Positions 10,534-48,943 of a stretch of 64,000 bases of DNA are shown one piece after another. Both the position numbers and the translations under genes were made by a program. Each line of letters starts with the position of its first letter. The first letter of the stretch is position 1. A model generated the notes under the pieces. It was not told the DNA's origin and searched no databases. It saw nothing but the letters and a program-made list of their open reading frames with translations. Where the stretch lies: positions 254,989-318,988 of the forward strand of contig JBBFLE010000001.1 of the NCBI GenBank assembly GCA_037481695.1, written 5' to 3'. This DNA is from a bacterium (GTDB lineage: Bacteria > Desulfobacterota > Desulfocorpusculales > Desulfocorpusculum).

Positions 10534-11775
10534 TCAGTTCTCCTCCAGCTGTTCCACAAAAGCCTCTATGTTTGTCACTGCCTGTTCCTCTGAATAACAC
10601 CGAAGGTCATTTAGATCTCCATGAATTACAAGGCAAGGAATACCCAGCCTCTTCTGCAGCCTCTGGGGCATGCTGTAGCGGCTGTTGGAGTTGTTGGGAC
10701 AGGTCTTGGCGTCATGAAAAAGAATGCCATCTATTTGAAACTGATTGACTATTCTCTCTATGTAGTCTTCTTTCCAACCCTCGGCATGGCATATGAATAT
10801 GTTGGTATAGGCCTTGGCCATGCTGTGAAAGGGATCATCCGGGTCAAAGTCCGTAAAGATCCAGCTGTTGCAATATGTAGATGCCACTATGCATGAGTGC
10901 AGCCGCATGAAAAGGTTGGCCAGATCCCTCAGCTTTCCCCAAATGGGCATTCCTTCCCAGTACAGGCGGTGTCTTTCCTCCTCCACTGCAGCCACCCCAT
11001 TTTTGACCCTCTCTTGGAGCTCTTTGAGCAATATTTCATAATAATCCACCGCCTCTTGGGTTCCTCTGGCCACCACTGCGGGCCCCATGTGGATCGTATG
11101 GTCGAAAAAGGTCCAGGGAGAAGGCACTGCCGAGGCGGTCTCCAGGACCTCCTTCCAGAGGTCCGAACAACGCCTGGACAGGCCCACCACATGGCGCAGT
11201 CGATCCATGTCCAGTTTTGTACCCGAGACCTGTTCCAGGGTGGGCACCAGCCCCTCCATTTGTCTGGCCACATCCTTGACATGGGCCTCTGTGACCTCTT
11301 CCACTCCCCTTGGTGAGGTGATTCCTATGACCGGAACCTTGAACTCCCTGCCGTAAAAGTGAAACCAGTCCTGAACGTCCCTGCACTGGTTGGTGTTGTA
11401 AACCAGCACGTCTGGCTTGGGCACACCGCTTATTCCATAGGTCTGTACAAGGGGAGTCTCTCGGCGCAGATAGGCCCCCACATCACTCGTGAGATAGGAG
11501 CAAATATCGGGTGAGTAACCCAGGGCATTGGCTACGGGTATGTAGTCCATGGCTTTGCGGGAAGCGCCCAACACCGCCCCATGGTTTTCTGGAAAATATA
11601 CAAGAAACCCCATGGCTCGAAGAAGCTCCGCGGGCCCTACACTGGTACACCAGGCAACCTTGGGTGATCCCCTCTTTACAGCCTGGTCCAACTCTTGAAA
11701 GTGCTGTGCCATGACTTGCTTGAGTTTTTTTGTAGCACTGAACTCCCTGCGATCAGAGCTTTGTCCCAAACCCAT
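10534..11775 (-). CDS. BcrB/HgdB-type 2-hydroxyacyl-CoA dehydratase or benzoyl-CoA reductase subunit
   Basis: A 413-residue member of the HgdB/FldC/BcrB family of iron-sulfur proteins that use one high-potential electron from an ATP-driven activase. Similarity to BcrB is clear by eye: EQVSGTKLDMDRLR, then GPAVVARGTQEAVDYYEILL, then QIDGILFHDAKTC. Ten cysteines are present; Cys92 (DIC), Cys131 (NQC) and Cys359 (KTC) fall where family members bind a 4Fe-4S cluster. It is the last gene of the hbd-led operon, 49 nt after its activase. Normal enzymes are heterodimers, and no second subunit gene lies beside it. It could be a homodimer of the YjiM/double-cubane type or pair with a subunit encoded elsewhere. 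Confidence 0.82.
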   Translation of the reverse strand: MGLGQSSDRREFSATKKLKQVMAQHFQELDQAVKRGSPKVAWCTSVGPAELLRAMGFLVYFPENHGAVLGASRKAMDYIPVANALGYSPDICSYLTSDVGAYLRRETPLVQTYGISGVPKPDVLVYNTNQCRDVQDWFHFYGREFKVPVIGITSPRGVEEVTEAHVKDVARQMEGLVPTLEQVSGTKLDMDRLRHVVGLSRRCSDLWKEVLETASAVPSPWTFFDHTIHMGPAVVARGTQEAVDYYEILLKELQERVKNGVAAVEEERHRLYWEGMPIWGKLRDLANLFMRLHSCIVASTYCNSWIFTDFDPDDPFHSMAKAYTNIFICHAEGWKEDYIERIVNQFQIDGILFHDAKTCPNNSNSRYSMPQRLQKRLGIPCLVIHGDLNDLRCYSEEQAVTNIEAFVEQLEEN

Positions 11776-11824
11776 TTAGAGCCCCCTCTCCCCTTACCTG
11801 CATCTGGCAAAACGGCAGGACCCT

Positions 11825-12649
11825 CTAGCCTGCCCTGTCTTCCTCCAGCCCGTAAAGGGCTGCTCCGAAGGCCCCGGTGAGTTGAGGATGGGGAGGGATA
11901 AACACATTGGTCTTCAACCTTTCTCCCAAAGCCTCAGCCAAGACCGGGTTGTGTTCCACAACTCCCCCGGTTAACACAATAGTCCCATCCAGAGGATCCA
12001 TCTCCAGGATTCTCTGAACCACCGAGTCGAAGAGCCCTCTTACTATGTCCTCCACCTTCTCTCCCTTTCTGATGAGGGTCAGTATCTCCGTGGAGGTGAA
12101 TACAGTGCAGTAGGATCCTATCTGGACTTTTCGGGTTGAACGCCTTGCCAATGAGTCCAGTTGGGATATATCCAGGCCCAGCCTCAGGGCCACCTCCTCC
12201 AGAAAAGCCCCAGTTCCTGCAGCGCACTTACGGTTCATTCGGAAGGCCACCCTACGGCCCTTCTCGTCCACCCGGATCACCTTGCAGTCTTGGCCTCCGA
12301 TGTCAACGATGGTGGCTGCATGGGGAAAGTAGTGATAACAGCCCTTCATGTGGCATGAGATCTCCGTCTTGATGCGCTTGGCCATGGGCACGTTGTAGCG
12401 GCCATATCCAGTGGAAACCACACAGCTCAAGCTCTCCAGCGAAACTCCAGCCTTTTCCAAAGCCTTTTCCAGACATGCGGCAGAGCCTCCTGCATAGTCC
12501 ACGCCCGAGCGTTGCACATGGAAACCCCTCATTGTGGCTTCCAGATCTATGACCACCGCCTTGGTCGTGGAGGCCCCCACATCCACACCAGCCCAAAAGA
12601 ACTTTTCCAAGCCGCTGCCGTGGATCCTCCCTTCGCCTTTGGTATTCAC
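11825..12649 (-). CDS. ASKHA-type activase (BcrA/BcrD/HgdC family)
   Basis: A 274-residue ATP-dependent electron donor for the adjacent dehydratase/reductase. Phosphate-binding motifs are GVDVGASTTKAVV and DIGGQDCKVI. The bridging 4Fe-4S cluster of the homodimer would be held by the Cys in KCAAGTGAFLEE and the Cys in YCTVFTSTEI. Hydrolysis of two ATP drives transfer of a low-potential electron to the partner. The start is a GTG at 12649, 18 nt after the acyl-CoA ligase stop. It is a single-subunit activase (HgdC/YjiL-like) rather than a BcrA/BcrD pair. Confidence 0.9.
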   Translation of the reverse strand: MNTKGEGRIHGSGLEKFFWAGVDVGASTTKAVVIDLEATMRGFHVQRSGVDYAGGSAACLEKALEKAGVSLESLSCVVSTGYGRYNVPMAKRIKTEISCHMKGCYHYFPHAATIVDIGGQDCKVIRVDEKGRRVAFRMNRKCAAGTGAFLEEVALRLGLDISQLDSLARRSTRKVQIGSYCTVFTSTEILTLIRKGEKVEDIVRGLFDSVVQRILEMDPLDGTIVLTGGVVEHNPVLAEALGERLKTNVFIPPHPQLTGAFGAALYGLEEDRAG

Positions 12650-40916: not shown

Positions 40917-42095
40917 ATGGACTTGGATTTCTCACAGGAGCAGAGGATTTTTCGGGAACAGGTCCTTAGTTTTTCTCGTAAGGAGATAGCCCCCCTGGGA
41001 GAGGATTCGGATCTCAAAGGGGAGTTTTGCTGGGAAGCATGGCGCAAGATGGCCAGCTTCGGGCTCCTGGGTCTGCACTTTCCAGAACAGTACGGCGGGG
41101 CTGGCTCTGACATTGTAACAGCCTGCCTTGCAGGGGAAGCTCTGGCAGAGGGGGGAGCCGACGGCGGGCTCACTCTTTCCTGGGGAGCGCACACCTACCT
41201 GTGTGGAGACACCATATTACAACATGGCACTGCTGAGCAAAAAGCCAGGTACCTGCCCAAGATAGCATCCGGGCAATGGATAGGAGCCTTGGGGCTCACA
41301 GAGCCCGAGGCAGGATCCGATGCCTCGGCAATTCGAACCGTTGCCCATAGAAAAGGGGACTACTATGTCCTCAATGGCACCAAGATGTTCATCACCAACG
41401 GCCCCATAGCCGACGTTCTGGTGGTAATAGCTTCCACGGATCCGGCCAAGAAGGCCTTGGGTATCTCGGCCTTCATAGTGGAGAAAAGCTACCAGGGATT
41501 CACGCCGGGCAAACCTCTGAAGAAGATGGGATGCCGCGCTTCGCCAACCTCGGAGCTTGTTTTCCAGGATTGTAGGGTGCCGGCAGAAAATCTTTTGGGC
41601 CAAGAAGGGGATGGTTTTGTCAAGATCGCCCTTGGAGCTCTGGAATGGGATCGAAGCTCCCTCATGGCGCCTTTTGTAGGGGGAATGCGTTATCTTTTGG
41701 ACCTTTGTGTAGCATACGCCAACCAAAGGGTGCAGTTCGACAGGCCCATAGGCCGATTCCAGGCCATTCAGCACAAACTGGCCGAAATGAAGGTGATCTA
41801 CGAGGCCAGTCGTCTGCTCATGTACAGGGTGGCTTGGTGCAAAGATCAGGGTAGGCCTTTGAATCACCTAGAGGCCGCAACAGCCAAACTCTTTGTGGGA
41901 GAAGCGGGCATGCGTCTGGCCCACGAAGCGGTCCAGATCCACGGCGGTTACGGATACATTCACGAGTACCCCGTGGAGCGTGCTTTTCGTAACGCCAGAT
42001 TGGCCTCCATAGGAGGAGGCACGAGTGAAATCCAGCGAGCCATAATAGCCCGAATGATAATGAATCTGGATTACAGTCATGGCAGGGCCATTTGA
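40917..42095 (+). CDS. Acyl-CoA dehydrogenase
   Basis: A 392-residue flavoenzyme that introduces a C=C bond into an acyl-CoA and passes electrons to ETF. Family marks are LTEPEAGSDASA, MFITNGPIAD, the middle beta-domain with KKMGCRASPTSELVF, and the FAD-contacting QIHGGYGYIHEYPVER. The usual catalytic Glu position near the C-terminus (YEGTS in MCAD) reads IGGGTSEIQ, with Gly367, so that Glu is absent. At the alternative helix-G position the sequence is ALEWDRSS, offering Asp245 or Glu243. Enzymes with Asp as base occur among alicyclic-CoA dehydrogenases. GGAGG precedes the ATG. A second dehydrogenase gene follows at 42239. Confidence 0.88.
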   Translation: MDLDFSQEQRIFREQVLSFSRKEIAPLGEDSDLKGEFCWEAWRKMASFGLLGLHFPEQYGGAGSDIVTACLAGEALAEGGADGGLTLSWGAHTYLCGDTILQHGTAEQKARYLPKIASGQWIGALGLTEPEAGSDASAIRTVAHRKGDYYVLNGTKMFITNGPIADVLVVIASTDPAKKALGISAFIVEKSYQGFTPGKPLKKMGCRASPTSELVFQDCRVPAENLLGQEGDGFVKIALGALEWDRSSLMAPFVGGMRYLLDLCVAYANQRVQFDRPIGRFQAIQHKLAEMKVIYEASRLLMYRVAWCKDQGRPLNHLEAATAKLFVGEAGMRLAHEAVQIHGGYGYIHEYPVERAFRNARLASIGGGTSEIQRAIIARMIMNLDYSHGRAI

Positions 42096-42238
42096 ATCCC
42101 AGAATTGACAGGTGCTCTGAAAAACCAATATGCCTGATCCCTTGGGATGCTTTGATCCGGGAAGATGTGTTTTCACAAAGAATCTCATCTCAGACACATG
42201 CCTGGCCTCAGGAGCAATGGAGAGCAGGGGGGAGAGCC

Positions 42239-43390
42239 ATGGATTTTGACCTCAGGGAAGAGCAGAAACAATTCCAAAGGTTCCTCAGGGAGACTTGCGA
42301 GAGAATCCTTAAACCCAAGGCAGTCCAGGTGGATGAGCTGGGGATGGTGCCGGAGGAAAATCTTCAGGAACTGGCCAGGGCGGGTTACATGGGACTTTTG
42401 ATCCCAGAGGCCTTGGGAGGAAACAATGGTGATATGACCTGTTTCCTCGTGGGCACAGAAGAGGTGGCCCGCTGCTGCCCCTCCACGGCCCTTGTGGCAG
42501 GAACCTCCTTGATGCGCTTCGGGCTTCCGACTATTCTGTACGCAAGTCAGGCCCAAAAGCAAAGGATTTTGCCCAGACTGGCAAGGGGAGACTTGAGAGG
42601 GGCTTGGGCTCATACAGAATCTCAAGGAGGATGCGATACAGAGAATCTCACCACCTGGGCCAGCTCCAGGCAGGATGGCTTTTCCTTGTGCGGCAGGAAG
42701 GACTATGTTCTAAATGGGCCTGAGGCATCGGCTCTGTTGGTTGCAGCCCGTGTGAATGCTGAGGCAGGTTGCGGGAAGTCCACAGGGGTCTTCTTGCTGG
42801 AGGAGCCTTGCCAGGGGCTCAAGAGAAGCCCCGTGGTGCGCACAGTGGGGGCCAGAGGGGCCAGAATCTGCAGCCTTGAACTGGAAGATTGCATTTTACC
42901 CAGGGACTCTCTTTTGGGGGGGGAGGCGGGGCCCTCGGCCCAGGCAGTGGAGGAATTACCACATATGCCTCTTTTGATGGCTGGTTACAGCATTGGAGTG
43001 GGACAGGCAGCGCTGGAGTTGAGCATTCATTATGCTCGTCAAAGGGCTACCTTTGGGCGGCCCATAGTCTCTTATCAGGAAGTTCACTTCAGGATCGCAG
43101 ACATGTATGTGAACGTGGATGTGGCCAGGCAGCTGGCTCTTAGGGCAGCCTGGCTCATAGATGTTGGCAGGGGCTCCACGGTGGAGTCATCCCTGGCCAA
43201 GCTCTTTGCCTCTGAGATGGGCCTCATGTGCGGGCAAAGCTGCGCACATATCCACGGGGGAAGGGGGCTGCTGGATGGAAGCCAGGCCGACAGGCTCCTG
43301 CGGGACAGCAGGATGGGGCTGATATTGGGGGGCACAGTGGAGATGCATCGCCTGGGCATAGCTAGGCAGGTGTTGGCGGGGAAGGCCTGA
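42239..43390 (+). CDS. Divergent acyl-CoA dehydrogenase-like protein
   Basis: A 383-residue acyl-CoA dehydrogenase homologue, less canonical than its neighbour. The FAD/substrate motif reads AHTESQGGCDTENL instead of LTEPxAGSD. The C-terminal catalytic segment is ILGGTVEMHRLGIAR, with Gly replacing the Glu of MCAD, and no clear helix-G Glu replaces it (EELPHMPLLMAG). HIHGGRGLLDG corresponds to the flavin-contacting loop. The ATG at 42239 follows GGGGAG; the frame is open 49 codons earlier but lacks family sequence there. It may form a heteromer with the first dehydrogenase, as paired FadE proteins do in steroid catabolism, or catalyse an unusual oxidation. Confidence 0.78.
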   Translation: MDFDLREEQKQFQRFLRETCERILKPKAVQVDELGMVPEENLQELARAGYMGLLIPEALGGNNGDMTCFLVGTEEVARCCPSTALVAGTSLMRFGLPTILYASQAQKQRILPRLARGDLRGAWAHTESQGGCDTENLTTWASSRQDGFSLCGRKDYVLNGPEASALLVAARVNAEAGCGKSTGVFLLEEPCQGLKRSPVVRTVGARGARICSLELEDCILPRDSLLGGEAGPSAQAVEELPHMPLLMAGYSIGVGQAALELSIHYARQRATFGRPIVSYQEVHFRIADMYVNVDVARQLALRAAWLIDVGRGSTVESSLAKLFASEMGLMCGQSCAHIHGGRGLLDGSQADRLLRDSRMGLILGGTVEMHRLGIARQVLAGKA

Positions 43391-43487: not shown

Positions 43488-46400
43488 ATGTATTCATCTG
43501 ACCGAAAAGATCTCTTCATAGGTCTGGATGTGGGATCCATTAGCCTCAACACGGTGCTCATGACCCATGAGGGGGCCGTTCTGGAAGAAGACTATACAAG
43601 GGTGCAGGGAAGGCCACTGGAGACGACGCTGAGGGTTCTTTCAGAACTTATGCAACGCTACCCTGGGGATCGTGTGGGAGGGGTAGGGGTGACCGGAGTG
43701 GGAGGAAAGCTGGCAGCCCAGCTCCTGGGAGGTTCTTTCTTTAACGAGGTGGTGGCCCAGGCCAGGTCCGTGGAACTTCTGGCCCCTGAGGCTCGCACCA
43801 TCATAGAGATGGGAGGCCAGGACGCCAAATTGATTCTTCTGGCCGGAAACTCCGGCAACGGAAGGCTTCAGATAGAGGACTTTTCCATGAACAGCCTCTG
43901 TGCGGCCGGCACGGGCTCTTTCTTGGATCAACAGGCCAGCCGTCTGGGATTGACCATCGAGGAATTTGGTCAGCTGGCACTCAAGTCCTCTTGCCCTCCT
44001 CGCATAGCAGGCCGTTGCTCGGTTTTTGCCAAGAGCGACATGATTCACCTCCAGCAAGCAGCCACCCCGGACTATGACATTGTGGCTGGATTGTGCTTTG
44101 CTGTGGCCAGAAATTTCAAGGGAAGCGTGGCGAGGGGAAAGCCGGTCAAACCACCTGTGGTTTTCCAGGGCGGTGTGGCAGCCAATCCTGGGATGATAAG
44201 GGCCTTTAGGGAAGTCCTGGAACTGATGGAAAAGGATCTAATGGTCCCGGCCCATTTTGCCTCCACAGGGGCCATAGGGGCTGTCTTGATGTTGCTGGAT
44301 GAGCCAGCTTTGCGTAGGCCTTTCAAGGGCTTGCAGGACCTGGAGGCCTATATTAGAGAGCATCGCAAAGTTGAAAGTGCCAAAAGTTTGGCTCCTCTTT
44401 GCAGACCTTCGAGGCTTCGCAGGGGCCCCACTGAAGTTTTTCCCATTTCTGCAAGATCAGGACGCATCAGGGGCTTCTTGGGGGTGGACGTAGGATCCAT
44501 AAGTACCAATGTGGTGGTCATTGATGAAAAAGGCAGGGTGCTCTCCAAGCGGTACCTGATGACCGCAGGGCGGCCTCTGGAGGCTGTCAAGAAGGGTCTT
44601 CGGGAAGTGGGAAAGGAAATAGGAGACAAGGTGGTCATTGCAGGGGCCGGCACTACGGGTTCCGGAAGATACCTCACTGGTGATTTCATAGGCGCGGATG
44701 TCATCAGGAACGAGATAACAGCCCAGGCCACTGCCGCAGTGGCCATAGACCCTGAGGTGGATACCATATTCGAAATAGGAGGCCAGGATTCCAAGTACAT
44801 CAGCATTTCCCATGGGGCTGTTGTGGACTTTGCCATGAACAAGGTCTGCGCTGCGGGGACGGGTTCTTTCCTGGAAGAGCAGGCCGAGAGGCTGGGGATA
44901 GCCATACAGGAAGAGTTTGCAGAGCTGGCCTTCAGTTCCAAGTGCCCTGTGCCCTTGGGGGAACGCTGTACGGTTTTCATGGAGTCGGACTTGGTCCATC
45001 ACTTGCAAAGAGGGGCGCCCACAGCCGACCTGGTGGCCGGACTGGCTTACTCCATAGTGGAGAATTATCTGAACAAGGTGGTGGAGACCCGAAGCATAGG
45101 CCAACGTATTTTCTTCCAAGGTGGGCCGGCTTTCAATCATGCCATAGTGGCGGCTTTTGAGCAGGTATTGGGAAGATCTATTACGGTCCCCCCTCATCAC
45201 GAGGTCACAGGCGCAATAGGAGCAGCTCTCTTGGCCATGAGAGAGAACCCGAAGCCTTATAGCAACTTCAAGGGCTTTGAATTGGCCGAAAGGCCTTACC
45301 AGGTTTCTCCCTTTGAATGCAAGGCTTGTCCCAACAGATGCGAGATAAAAAAGGTGATCCTGGCCGGAGAAGAAGATCGGCCTCTTTTCTATGGAGGCCG
45401 CTGTGAGCGCTATGAGAGAAGACAGCCAGGTCAAGACAACAAGATGGTGCAGGTAAGTGATCTTTTTTCCCAGAGGGAAAAGCTGCTCCTGGAGACCTAC
45501 CCTGGCGAAGGACCTGACTCGGGTGTGATGGTGGGCATACCCCGGACCCTTTTCTTTTTGGAGCTGCTTCCTTTTTGGAAAGCCTTTTTTTCCAATATGG
45601 GTTTCAAGGTGGTGGTCTCGGATCCCACCACCAAGGAGATCATCCATAAAGGGGTGGAAAAGGTTGTGGCTGAGACCTGCTTCCCCATCAAGGTGGCCTT
45701 CGGCCATGTGGAGAACCTGTTACAAAAAGGGGTCAGCCTGCTTTTCCTTCCAAGCATCATAGACATGAGACAGGCCAGCGAGGATCTGCCTCAGGGCTTT
45801 AACTGCCCGTATGTGCAAACCATCCCTTACACGGTGCGTTCGGCCTTTGACTTTGAGGCTGCTGGAGTCCAACTCCTGGATCCACCTTTTCGCTTCGGAG
45901 CTCCTCGTAAGGAGCTTCACAAGGACCTTGTTAGATTTGGGCGTTCTTTAGGGGTCAAGGCCTCAATGGTAAAAGAGGCCATCAAAGCTGCTGAGGATGC
46001 CCAAGAGAGATTTGCCACAGCCTTGAAGCAAATGGGTGAAAAGGCCTTGGAGGAGCTAAGGCCAGAGCAAAAGGCCATGGTCATAGTGAGTCGTGTTTAC
46101 AATGGATGCGACTCAGGCCTAAACCTGAATCTCCCTAGAAAACTCAAGGACTTGGGAGTGCTGGCCATCCCCCTGGATTTCTTGCCATTGGAGAAGCTAG
46201 AGCCTGACGAGGAGGTATTGGGGCACTATTGGCGCTACGGCCAGAGATTCATGGCCTCAGCCAAACTTCTCAGAGAAGATCCCAGACTCTATCCCATATA
46301 CATAACCAACTTCGGGTGCGGTCCAGATTCCTTCATACAACATTTTTTTAGGAACGCCATGGGCGAAAAGCCGCTCTTGCAACTGGAAATAGACGAGCAT

Positions 46401-47723
46401 AGCTCGGATGTGGGAGCCATAACGCGCTTGGAGGCCTTTCTGGACAGCCTCAAGAACGCCCCTGCCAAGGCCTCCGGGCCATTGAGACCCATAAGAAGAC
46501 AGGGCCTCCACTCCATAGGCAGGGAAAGGAAGGTCTTTCTTCCTTATATGACCGATCAGGCCAGGGCGGTGGCAGCGGCCTTTGAGGCAAGCGGAGTTCC
46601 AGCTGAGGTTCTTCCCAAGACCACAGAGGAGACCCTTCGTGTGGGAAGACGCTATACCTCGGGCAAGGAATGCTATCCAGCAATCCTTACCACCGGGGAC
46701 ATGTTGGCTTGGGCCATGAGACCCGGGTTCGACAGGGCTCACAGTGCCTTTTTCATGCCAGGAGGCTCTGGCCCTTGCCGTTTCGGCCAATACAACAGAT
46801 TTCATCGCCTGGTCCTGGACCAGGCCGGATTCCACGATGTACCCATCTATTCTCCGGTCCAGGACCAGGAAATGTACAAACAGCTCGGCCTCATAGGCAA
46901 GACCTTTGTGCGGCTGGGTTGGCGAGGAGTAGTGGCCATAGATTTCCTGGAGAAAGCGCTTTGGGAGATAAGACCCCTGGAGGCCAGAGCCGGAGAGGCA
47001 CAGGAGGTTTACGAAAAGGCGGTGGCCATGGTGTGTGAAGAGCTTCGGCAGGGCAACGGAGATCTCTTTCCAATCCTGCAGGAGGCCAGGCAGGCCTTTG
47101 AATCCATATCCCTGCGCACGGATCAGGCCAGGCCCGTGGTGGGCATTGTAGGAGAGATATACATCCGATCCAATCCTTTTGCCAACGAGGATGTCATCCG
47201 CAGACTGGAGCAGTTGGGGGTAAGTGTTTGGATGCCTCCCATTTCCGAGTGGCTCCTTTACATCAATTGTATATCCAAGCGCCACGCCATGAGAGACCGA
47301 AGGTGGAAGAACTATCTGCGAACATCCCTCAAGCAATGGTTTCAAAGAAAAGACGAGCACCGCATGGAGGAGATCTTCCATGGGCTGGTGCGCAACCTTA
47401 AGGAGCCCACCATAGAGGAGACCATGCGTCTGGCAGGTCCTTATGTACATCACTCCTTTGAGGGGGAGACCATCTTGAGCATAGGAAAGGCTGAAGATTT
47501 CTATAGAAAAGGCGTCAGCGGACTCGTCAGTGTTGGGCCCTTCACCTGCATGCCGGGCACCATAGTGACCGCACTGCTCAAGAGATTCAGAGAGGAACAC
47601 GATGGGATACCTGTGCTGAATCTTTTCTTTGACGGTCAGGGAGAAAGTTCCAATCAGAACCGTTTGGAGGCCTTTGTTCACCAGGTACATAGTTTTAGAA
47701 GCAAGAGGCACTGGCCCCAATGA
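43488..47723 (+). CDS. Giant CoA-activase/dehydratase fusion (two ASKHA domains plus DUF2229 and HgdB-like part)
   Basis: A 1411-residue protein combining two activase modules with dehydratase-like sequence. ASKHA domain 1 (about 8-270) has GLDVGSIS, MGGQDAKL and LCAAGTGSFLD; domain 2 (about 328-590) repeats GVDVGSIS, IGGQDSKYI and VCAAGTGSFLEE, so each has its cluster Cys. A Cys-rich bridge (CKACPNRCEI, about 611-620) leads into a DUF2229-type region (VGIPRTLFFLELLPFW; ETCFPIKVAFGHV). The C-terminal third resembles HgdB/BcrB proteins (NFGCGPDSF; GKECYPAILTTGD; PCRFGQYNRFHR). It is known from many anaerobes as an activase-related protein without a proven reaction. The ATG at 43488 is preferred to TTG 43479. 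It lies downstream of the two acyl-CoA dehydrogenase genes. Confidence 0.88.
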   Translation: MYSSDRKDLFIGLDVGSISLNTVLMTHEGAVLEEDYTRVQGRPLETTLRVLSELMQRYPGDRVGGVGVTGVGGKLAAQLLGGSFFNEVVAQARSVELLAPEARTIIEMGGQDAKLILLAGNSGNGRLQIEDFSMNSLCAAGTGSFLDQQASRLGLTIEEFGQLALKSSCPPRIAGRCSVFAKSDMIHLQQAATPDYDIVAGLCFAVARNFKGSVARGKPVKPPVVFQGGVAANPGMIRAFREVLELMEKDLMVPAHFASTGAIGAVLMLLDEPALRRPFKGLQDLEAYIREHRKVESAKSLAPLCRPSRLRRGPTEVFPISARSGRIRGFLGVDVGSISTNVVVIDEKGRVLSKRYLMTAGRPLEAVKKGLREVGKEIGDKVVIAGAGTTGSGRYLTGDFIGADVIRNEITAQATAAVAIDPEVDTIFEIGGQDSKYISISHGAVVDFAMNKVCAAGTGSFLEEQAERLGIAIQEEFAELAFSSKCPVPLGERCTVFMESDLVHHLQRGAPTADLVAGLAYSIVENYLNKVVETRSIGQRIFFQGGPAFNHAIVAAFEQVLGRSITVPPHHEVTGAIGAALLAMRENPKPYSNFKGFELAERPYQVSPFECKACPNRCEIKKVILAGEEDRPLFYGGRCERYERRQPGQDNKMVQVSDLFSQREKLLLETYPGEGPDSGVMVGIPRTLFFLELLPFWKAFFSNMGFKVVVSDPTTKEIIHKGVEKVVAETCFPIKVAFGHVENLLQKGVSLLFLPSIIDMRQASEDLPQGFNCPYVQTIPYTVRSAFDFEAAGVQLLDPPFRFGAPRKELHKDLVRFGRSLGVKASMVKEAIKAAEDAQERFATALKQMGEKALEELRPEQKAMVIVSRVYNGCDSGLNLNLPRKLKDLGVLAIPLDFLPLEKLEPDEEVLGHYWRYGQRFMASAKLLREDPRLYPIYITNFGCGPDSFIQHFFRNAMGEKPLLQLEIDEHSSDVGAITRLEAFLDSLKNAPAKASGPLRPIRRQGLHSIGRERKVFLPYMTDQARAVAAAFEASGVPAEVLPKTTEETLRVGRRYTSGKECYPAILTTGDMLAWAMRPGFDRAHSAFFMPGGSGPCRFGQYNRFHRLVLDQAGFHDVPIYSPVQDQEMYKQLGLIGKTFVRLGWRGVVAIDFLEKALWEIRPLEARAGEAQEVYEKAVAMVCEELRQGNGDLFPILQEARQAFESISLRTDQARPVVGIVGEIYIRSNPFANEDVIRRLEQLGVSVWMPPISEWLLYINCISKRHAMRDRRWKNYLRTSLKQWFQRKDEHRMEEIFHGLVRNLKEPTIEETMRLAGPYVHHSFEGETILSIGKAEDFYRKGVSGLVSVGPFTCMPGTIVTALLKRFREEHDGIPVLNLFFDGQGESSNQNRLEAFVHQVHSFRSKRHWPQ

Positions 47724-47756: not shown

Positions 47757-47969
47757 ATGAAAGAAGATTCTTGCAGGAATCACAAAGAAAACCTAAAGCG
47801 TTGCAACTGCACCTACGAGCCTTGCCCCAGGAAAGGATACTGTTGCGAGTGCCTTCATTACCATCGCTCCCATGGTGAAGTGCCGGCATGTTTCTTCCCT
47901 GCGGAAGTGGAGCGCACCTATGACAGGAGCCTGGCCCGTTTCCTATCCTTGCATAGAGGGAGGTCATGA
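47757..47969 (+). CDS. DUF6485 family Cys-rich small protein
   Basis: A 70-residue protein with the family core [18 protein letters not shown], then [15 protein letters not shown] and [11 protein letters not shown]. Seven of its cysteines lie in a 40-residue block, which suggests a zinc or iron-sulfur site. Its function is unknown. It starts 33 nt after the giant activase gene and its TGA overlaps the start of the radical SAM gene (ATGA), so it is co-translated with that gene. Confidence 0.85.
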
Positions 47970-48943
47970 GGTTTCCCAGGGCAGCCCATCCATTGCGCAG
48001 GATAACCTACGGCCCGGTTCCTTCCAGGAGGTTGGGCAGATCCCTGGGCATAGACCTGCTGCCCATGAAGAGCTGCTCCTACGACTGCGTATATTGCCAG
48101 CTGGGCCCCACTTTAAGGCCCAGGTTCAAAAGGATGGAGTTCATCCAGCCGGAGCTGGTGGGTAGGGCTGTGAGGCAGGCCTTGGAGAAGGGCGGCCCGG
48201 TGGATGTGTTGAGCTTTTCAGGATCTGGTGAACCAACCCTGGACAAACATCTGGGGACAACCATCAGGCTCCTTAAGAGGCTCTTCGGCCTACCGATTGC
48301 TGTGATAACCAATGGTTCCCTTCTTTACCGAAGAGACGTGAGGGAAGCCCTTCGGGAAGCTGACCTGTTGCTTCCATCCATGGATGGCTGGACAGAGCCC
48401 ATGTTCAGAAGGATCAACAGGCCTCACCCGCTCTTGAAGCTGGAGAAGGTTTTGGATGGGCTCGTGTCCCTTAGGAAGGAATTCAAAGGCCAGATCTGGT
48501 TGGAGGTGTTTCTGGTCCAGGATGTCAACGACTCCCTGGAACATGTTCCTGGGCTCATTCAATGGCTCCAGAGAATAAATCCAGACAGAGTCCAGCTCAA
48601 CAGCTTGAGTAGACCTCCTGCAGAAGCTTGGGTCAGGGCCCCCAGTCCTGAGCGCATCAAGGAGATCAGAGATGCCCTGGGGCCCAGGGCCGAAATCGTG
48701 GTTCCTTTTAAAGGGCTCCAGGAGAAGGCCTCCATTGAGGATCTGGAACAAAGGATTGTGGAGACCGTTACAAGAAGACCTCTTTGCCCAGAGGATCTGA
48801 GTTCTCTGTTCGGCTTGGAACCAGCCTTTGCAAGACGTCTGATGCAGGATCTGTCCAGGAAAAACTCTTGGAAGGCTCACAGCGTGGGCGGCAGGACCTA
48901 CTACAGGGCAAAGCAGCTTCGGCCTGGGGAACCGTCCAAATGA
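47966..48943 (+). CDS. Radical SAM protein (COG0731-like)
   Basis: A 325-residue radical SAM enzyme. It begins with [21 protein letters not shown] and the cluster motif [13 protein letters not shown] (Cx3CxxC); the SAM-binding GSGEPTLD and the TNGSLLYR segment follow. The C-terminal 90 residues ([24 protein letters not shown]) look like a small winged-helix domain, perhaps for substrate or nucleic-acid binding. The GPVPSRR start is typical of a large uncharacterised group of anaerobe proteins. It is coupled to DUF6485 upstream and map downstream by 4-nt overlaps. Confidence 0.87.

Follow-up and report, generated by a model that had tools for sequence, protein, structure and literature searches.

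In this study, we analyzed a stretch of 64,000 nucleotides from a Desulfocorpusculum genome (GenBank assembly GCA_037481695.1, contig JBBFLE010000001.1, positions 254,989 to 318,988; referred to here as the window), with a focus on one gene at window positions 43488 to 47723 of the plus strand, which encodes a single-chain fusion of activase and HgdAB-like domains. We propose that this protein is probably an ATP-driven, low-potential iron-sulfur (Fe-S) reductase of the class I benzoyl-CoA reductase (BCR)/2-hydroxyacyl-CoA dehydratase (HAD) type contained in one polypeptide. The DUF2229 region and the last third of the protein read as two copies of one HgdA/HgdB-like domain, and therefore the four domains of the fusion appear to represent all four subunit types of that system. 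The open reading frame (ORF) runs uninterrupted from ATG to stop over 1411 residues, with a G+C content that matches that of the window (54%), and Pfam and NCBIfam place on it two activase stretches followed by a DUF2229 domain at residues 682 to 898 (PF09989, E = 3e-66), where the original prediction, made from the sequence alone, had also placed a DUF2229 segment.

The first two domains belong to the ASKHA activases. Domain 1 (approximately residues 8 to 275; 43509 to 44312, plus strand) and domain 2 (residues 326 to 590; 44463 to 45257, plus strand) account for the two stretches matched both by PF01869 (BcrAD_BadFG; E = 4.4e-82, 276 bits against a cutoff of 31.5) and by TIGR00241 (CoA_E_activ; E = 4.4e-92, 308 bits against a cutoff of 125.4). 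In an alignment with the solved activators 4eht, 9gai_D, and 1hux, the pairs C138/C177 and C454/C494 fall on the cysteines of the CAAGTG and C(T/S)VF motifs, which makes them the likely cluster ligands and bears out the two complete activase modules with CAAGTG cysteines that had been described before. The AlphaFold2 model of the activase half is confident (predicted local distance difference test [pLDDT], 92.2; predicted template modeling score [pTM], 0.87), and the structures nearest to domain 2 (VIA Z scores of 32.7 to 26.8) are all activators, led by MbdQ of 3-methylbenzoyl-CoA reductase (9gai_D, 32.7) and 1hux_A (31.5) and including HadI, HgdC, and DCCP-R. Judged by family match and predicted fold, both domains thus have what defines an activase protomer, that is, an ASKHA domain with two putative cluster cysteines.

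The cysteines of the fusion are conserved to a degree that sets the domain pattern apart from chance. We collected 100 relatives from 100 fetched loci, chosen through two activase peptides or through DUF2229 and thus independently of the cysteines to be counted, and based all conservation counts on the 91 full-length proteins among them. Fourteen cysteines are invariant or nearly so: two in each activase domain, four in the linker between the two halves, and three in each HgdA/B-like domain. All 91 relatives retain C138, C177, C454, C494, C731, C773, and C944; the linker residues C611 and C639 are present in 90 of 90, and C614, C618, C1062, C1097, and C1354 in 90 of 91. It is the retention of the activase cysteines in every full-length relative, where the original prediction had named their loss in homologues as the outcome that would speak against it, that argues against a chance arrangement. 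An apparent loss in some relatives was an artifact of a narrow motif, as the alignment revealed the cysteine-keeping variants CAGGTG and CSSGCG, and divergent members at 26 to 28% identity still retain the cysteines of the activase domains and of domain 3. One divergent relative (L051, 8010 to 12029, minus strand) keeps these same cysteines and lacks those of the linker and of domain 4, which makes it a candidate for altered function. The linker itself carries the motif C611-x2-C614-x3-C618-x20-C639 (45318 to 45404, plus strand), whose conservation in the full-length relatives points to a possible additional [4Fe-4S] site. It resembles a C-x2-C-x3-C-x11-13-C motif that, according to a passage of PMC11574389, binds a [4Fe-4S] cluster elsewhere, in other enzymes, and the linker of the fusion may hold a cluster as well.

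The acceptor half consists of domain 3 (residues 651 to 1000, enclosing the DUF2229 match; 45438 to 46487, plus strand) and domain 4 (residues 1014 to 1411; 46527 to 47720, plus strand), which our data support as a duplicated HgdA/B-like pair at the level of profiles and, for domain 3, of predicted structure. Compared by hhalign, the two domains match each other over 273 columns with a probability of 96.3% (E = 1.8e-9), and their conserved cysteines fall in register (C731 with C1062, C773 with C1097, and C944 with C1354). Against a profile of 26 trimmed HGD-D sequences, domain 3 reached 95.9% (E = 6.5e-9) and domain 4 reached 93.9% (E = 1.6e-7), whereas the activase domains, used as controls, reached 2.8% and 1.0%; with a thinner HGD-D alignment, the value for domain 4 was 28%, rising to 94% with the 26 sequences. 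The HgdB-like last third of the original prediction therefore holds by profile-profile comparison and is not seen by a direct scan, since no HGD-D row (PF06050) was found at E ≤ 0.01 in the Pfam scan of the whole protein and the last third scanned alone gave a subthreshold HGD-D match (0.043) next to one to DUF2229 (4.3e-5). The model of residues 600 to 1411 is confident (pLDDT, 91.5; pTM, 0.89), and all 14 Foldseek matches at E ≤ 0.001 are BCR/HAD acceptors (E = 5e-6 to 2.6e-4). For domain 3, the structure matches are chains of HadBC, DCCP, BzdNO, and MbdON (VIA Z scores of 10.8 to 15.0, with 265 to 281 residues aligned at a root mean square deviation of 3.8 to 4.4), whereas the acceptor half, run as a profile against the sequences of the PDB, gave weak matches only.

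The fusion has features in common with several characterized systems. Like BzdNOPQ and MbdONPQ, the class I BCR and 3-methylbenzoyl-CoA reductase, it combines two activase and two HgdA/B-like units with matching folds, but those enzymes are built from four separate chains, and their benzoate context is not conserved around the fusion; the NCBIfam equivalog cutoffs for BCR subunits A, D, and Q were likewise missed (165.3 against 578, 128.6 against 312.85, and 128.0 against 380.2). With HadBC/HgdAB and their activators HadI/HgdC, it shares the positions of the activase cysteines and three-cysteine sites in both acceptor domains, although HadI and HgdC are homodimers encoded by a gene of their own, and the fusion adds the four-cysteine linker site. 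DCCP and DCCP-R provide structure matches for both halves, and the DCCP family (NF040772) is absent among the NCBIfam matches of the fusion. As described in the relevant passages of PMC11971306, DCCP holds a double cubane in each monomer, BzdN binds one through six cysteines, the HADs have lost it, and BzdO holds a [4Fe-4S]-OH2 cluster through Cys95, Cys128, and Cys380, with the catalytic Glu65 and His131 adjacent. The conserved cysteines of the fusion do not supply the six of BzdN, and we rejected a double cubane in domain 3 or 4 on cysteine number, since each has three invariant cysteines in the 91 relatives; the four cysteines of the linker precede domain 3, which they might conceivably join. 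Three cysteines per domain would instead fit [4Fe-4S] sites such as those of BzdO and the HADs, and by this count the two domains look like two HAD-type sites. In HAD, the corresponding clusters lie 12 Å apart, according to a passage of PMC11574389. Database entries annotated as DUF2229 or "CoA enzyme activase" fusions have the same family and architecture as the window protein.

In the mechanism that we favor, domains 1 and 2 would pair within the chain, share one [4Fe-4S] cluster through C138, C177, C454, and C494, and hydrolyze ATP. Ferredoxin or flavodoxin would donate an electron to this pseudodimer, possibly by way of the four-cysteine site of the linker, and ATP hydrolysis would drive the electron into domains 3 and 4, which would pair like HgdA and HgdB with one three-cysteine [4Fe-4S] cluster each and would reduce the substrate at the open coordination site of these clusters. 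The idea of an intramolecular activase dimer fused to its own electron acceptor, put forward in the original prediction, is consistent with the conservation of the four bridging cysteines, the confident predicted fold of the activase half, and the putative HgdA/B-like pair. We lean slightly toward reduction over dehydration, because an acyl-CoA context is not conserved around the gene. The broad distribution of the gene, with no catabolic neighbors conserved beside it, suggests a housekeeping role more than the breakdown of a particular acyl-CoA.

Natural split forms show where the chain can be divided. In five genomes (G027, G064, G098, and G225, all of family f27, and G284), domains 1 to 3 form one ORF, and domain 4 has an ORF of its own that overlaps or adjoins the first, on the same strand but in a different frame; G004 carries a similar split pair; therefore, the fourth domain can be a separate subunit. 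A further split fusion (L188, 1276 to 7728) consists of proteins of 1022 and 456 amino acids, with a radical-SAM gene upstream and a gene of 281 residues between. The genome under study has only one DUF2229 protein, and it also has HGD-D and activase genes that are separate from each other and adjacent (C1, 210025 to 214116), so that a four-gene counterpart coexists with the fusion. Within the window, roughly 30 kb from the fusion, there is an independent HGD-D gene accompanied by an activase of its own (10534 to 12649, minus strand), and more than one BCR/HAD-type system is thus present on the same contig. Elsewhere in this genome, two neighboring activase genes (L140 on contig C24, 410 to 15532) stand beside another gene set, which we take to be class II BCR-like; no HGD-D match was found on that contig, and an HGD-D pair is located on contig C10.

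The family is widespread, as originally claimed. DUF2229 was found in 229 of the 297 genomes sampled from the phylum, among them 158 of the 192 without a COX1 match, and the named relatives come from Thermodesulfobacteriota, Nitrospirota, Planctomycetota, Bacteroidota, Armatimonadota, Zixibacteria, and others; control genomes with a match belong to Thermus, Deinobacterium, Thermotoga, and Lactococcus. In the phylogenetic tree, the window protein groups with that of L039, which comes from its own family; the supported set enclosing the two comprises 30 of the 109 rows. A literature search on the DUF2229 family (PF09989, and COG3580/COG3581 and PTHR32329, which we take to be further names for it) and on archerase/YjiL found no functional study, and no reaction was found in the searched literature, in keeping with the original statement that the reaction is not established. 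A presumed homologue is the protein SMU_0438c of Streptococcus mutans. This protein, of like annotation, is listed as 2.2-fold up in low manganese in an excerpt of PMC6952196. The sole paper found to mention DUF2229 (PMC11362221) contains a passage on two YjiL ATPases fused with DUF2229 in metagenome-assembled genomes of Ruminococcus, for which an acyl-CoA reductase is suggested; that passage does not cover the domain 3/4 duplication, the cysteine map, the split forms, or a radical-SAM linkage.

No gene is widely common to the 99 loci that carry the fusion. In the window, two acyl-CoA dehydrogenase genes (40917 to 42095 and 42092 to 43390, both on the plus strand) lie directly upstream, and the original prediction had taken them as the context for a function, but they adjoin the fusion in only 2 of the 99 loci, the window and L039, and are conserved as neighbors only in family f1, to which both belong; we therefore discarded them as a general functional context. 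Acyl-CoA dehydrogenases usually carry an EGT motif, and both proteins of the window have GGT at the position of its Glu, as does the first one in L039. The cysteine-rich DUF6485 protein of 70 amino acids (47757 to 47969, plus strand; PF20095, E = 1e-7), which begins 33 bp after the fusion, is present as had been stated and is equally local, being found near the fusion in all three loci of family f1 and in 3 of 101 sources overall. Scanning the window for Rfam families and tRNAs yielded no match.

A better partner is the gene that follows, which had been overlooked in the first reading and encodes a radical-SAM protein of the GPVPSRRLG type (47966 to 48943, plus strand; PF04055), overlapping the DUF6485 gene by 4 bp and followed by a methionyl aminopeptidase gene. 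Of the sampled genomes of the phylum, 158 have both the fusion family and this radical-SAM family, and the listed positions permit a comparison in 91; in 32 of these 91, from 10 families, the two genes lie within 8 kb of each other, on the same strand in 31, where chance would give about 0.5 (an estimate from 16 kb per genome of about 3 Mb that treats related genomes as independent). The radical-SAM gene is usually directly upstream, with touching or overlapping ORFs in L044, L177, and L186; all three members of the window's family have it downstream instead. Among 80 named loci, it lies within 4 kb of the fusion in 6, once on the opposite strand; a recount of the linkage across loci took in 20 loci that had been chosen for it. 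With the exception of L112, where the distance is 3.3 kb, the linked fusions fall into the same supported set of 30 of the 109 tree rows, so a single ancestral event, kept over time, is possible. Co-occurrence of DUF2229 and the radical-SAM family was significant in the whole sample (P = 0.006) and in COX1-positive genomes (P = 0.006) and absent in COX1-negative ones (P = 1.0); it is therefore confounded with oxygen lifestyle, and we used only the physical linkage. At nine loci (L053, 3712 to 3900; L180, 5869 to 6075; L194, 5636 to 5821; and six more), a 60-residue protein ending in CQLGCF is encoded just before the upstream radical-SAM gene; the three named proteins and that of L087 matched no Pfam family at the cutoff. 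A literature search on COG0731 returned nothing on this radical-SAM family. In the window's lineage, the radical-SAM gene may be part of the same functional unit as the fusion.

Several observations weigh against a BCR/HAD-type reductase of anaerobes. The Pfam gathering score for HGD-D (28.4) is missed by both acceptor domains (16.9 bits for domain 3 and 13.8 bits for domain 4), and the VIA matches of the acceptor half all run through domain 3, with none direct for domain 4. At the position three residues after the second conserved cysteine, where BzdO has its catalytic histidine, C773 is followed by Val and C1097 by Gly, as read by offset in the translation rather than in an alignment with BzdO, leaving a BzdO-type acid/base pair in the fusion unsupported. 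Specificity for anaerobes is loose, as DUF2229 occurs in 71 of the 105 COX1-bearing genomes and in the controls Thermus composti and Deinobacterium chartae, both of which we take to be aerobic and which fit an anaerobe-only role poorly. Finally, the anatomy of the fusion would also serve a redox-neutral dehydration or a role in activating an enzyme.

Of the other explanations, one in which another metalloenzyme or a cofactor, and not a metabolite, receives the ATP-driven electron, making the fusion a reductive activator or repair enzyme and a general service protein of anaerobes, strikes us as rather unlikely but worth keeping in view. The low-potential, ATP-driven design, the occurrence in 229 of 297 genomes with no conserved catabolic neighborhood, and the radical-SAM partner in one clade would suit it, but domains 3 and 4 keep three cysteines each in 90 to 91 of 91 relatives, as catalytic subunits do, and no target protein has been identified. 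Another view is that the fusion is a catabolic acyl-CoA enzyme, in which an aryl-CoA reductase or a 2-hydroxyacyl-CoA dehydratase has been fused into one chain and acts together with the two acyl-CoA dehydrogenases upstream and a nearby crotonase: the structure matches place it in the right superfamily, the dehydrogenases are adjacent in the window and L039, and an acyl-CoA reductase has been proposed for the like fusion of Ruminococcus (PMC11362221, in the passage cited above), yet no acyl-CoA dehydrogenases were found around the fusion in the other 97 of 99 loci, the phyla that carry the gene differ in their catabolism, and separate BCR/HAD sets, each with activases, are already encoded in the genome. 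We regard this view as unlikely.

A non-redox protein, its clusters lost from one or both halves and its chain serving as a switch or scaffold that depends on ATP, is highly improbable. L051, without its linker and domain 4 cysteines but with those of the activase domains, is what one might expect of such a protein, but the window protein has all 14 cysteines, each kept in 90 to 91 full-length relatives, and even members at 26 to 28% identity keep those of the activase domains and domain 3. We thus retain the single-chain reductase as the preferred reading. A bolder extension of it, which we consider improbable as it stands, is that in the Thermodesulfobacteriota the fusion, the adjacent radical-SAM protein, and a small cysteine protein make up a single module that has not been described before. 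In it, the radical-SAM protein would modify or mature either the fusion or the substrate of the fusion, and the two together would carry out a new kind of radical reduction, driven by ATP, in which one chain bears four Fe-S sites. If true, this would be another nitrogenase-like answer to low-potential chemistry, one that anaerobes of many phyla possess with or without the partner.

The fusion family is common, and the fusion itself has already been remarked on in print, in the passage of PMC11362221; the present analysis contributes the reading as four domains, the map of their cysteines, the split forms, and the linkage to a radical-SAM gene. The 14-cysteine map, the natural splits, and the linked radical-SAM gene make the function of the fusion directly testable, and its single chain makes the geometry between activase and acceptor accessible as one construct. 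Class I BCR and HAD enzymes attain some of the lowest potentials in biology by paying ATP for the transfer of single electrons. That a one-chain form of them occurs in 229 of the 297 genomes sampled from the phylum, and in many others besides, while the searched literature yielded no reaction for it, represents a large gap in our picture of anaerobic metabolism.

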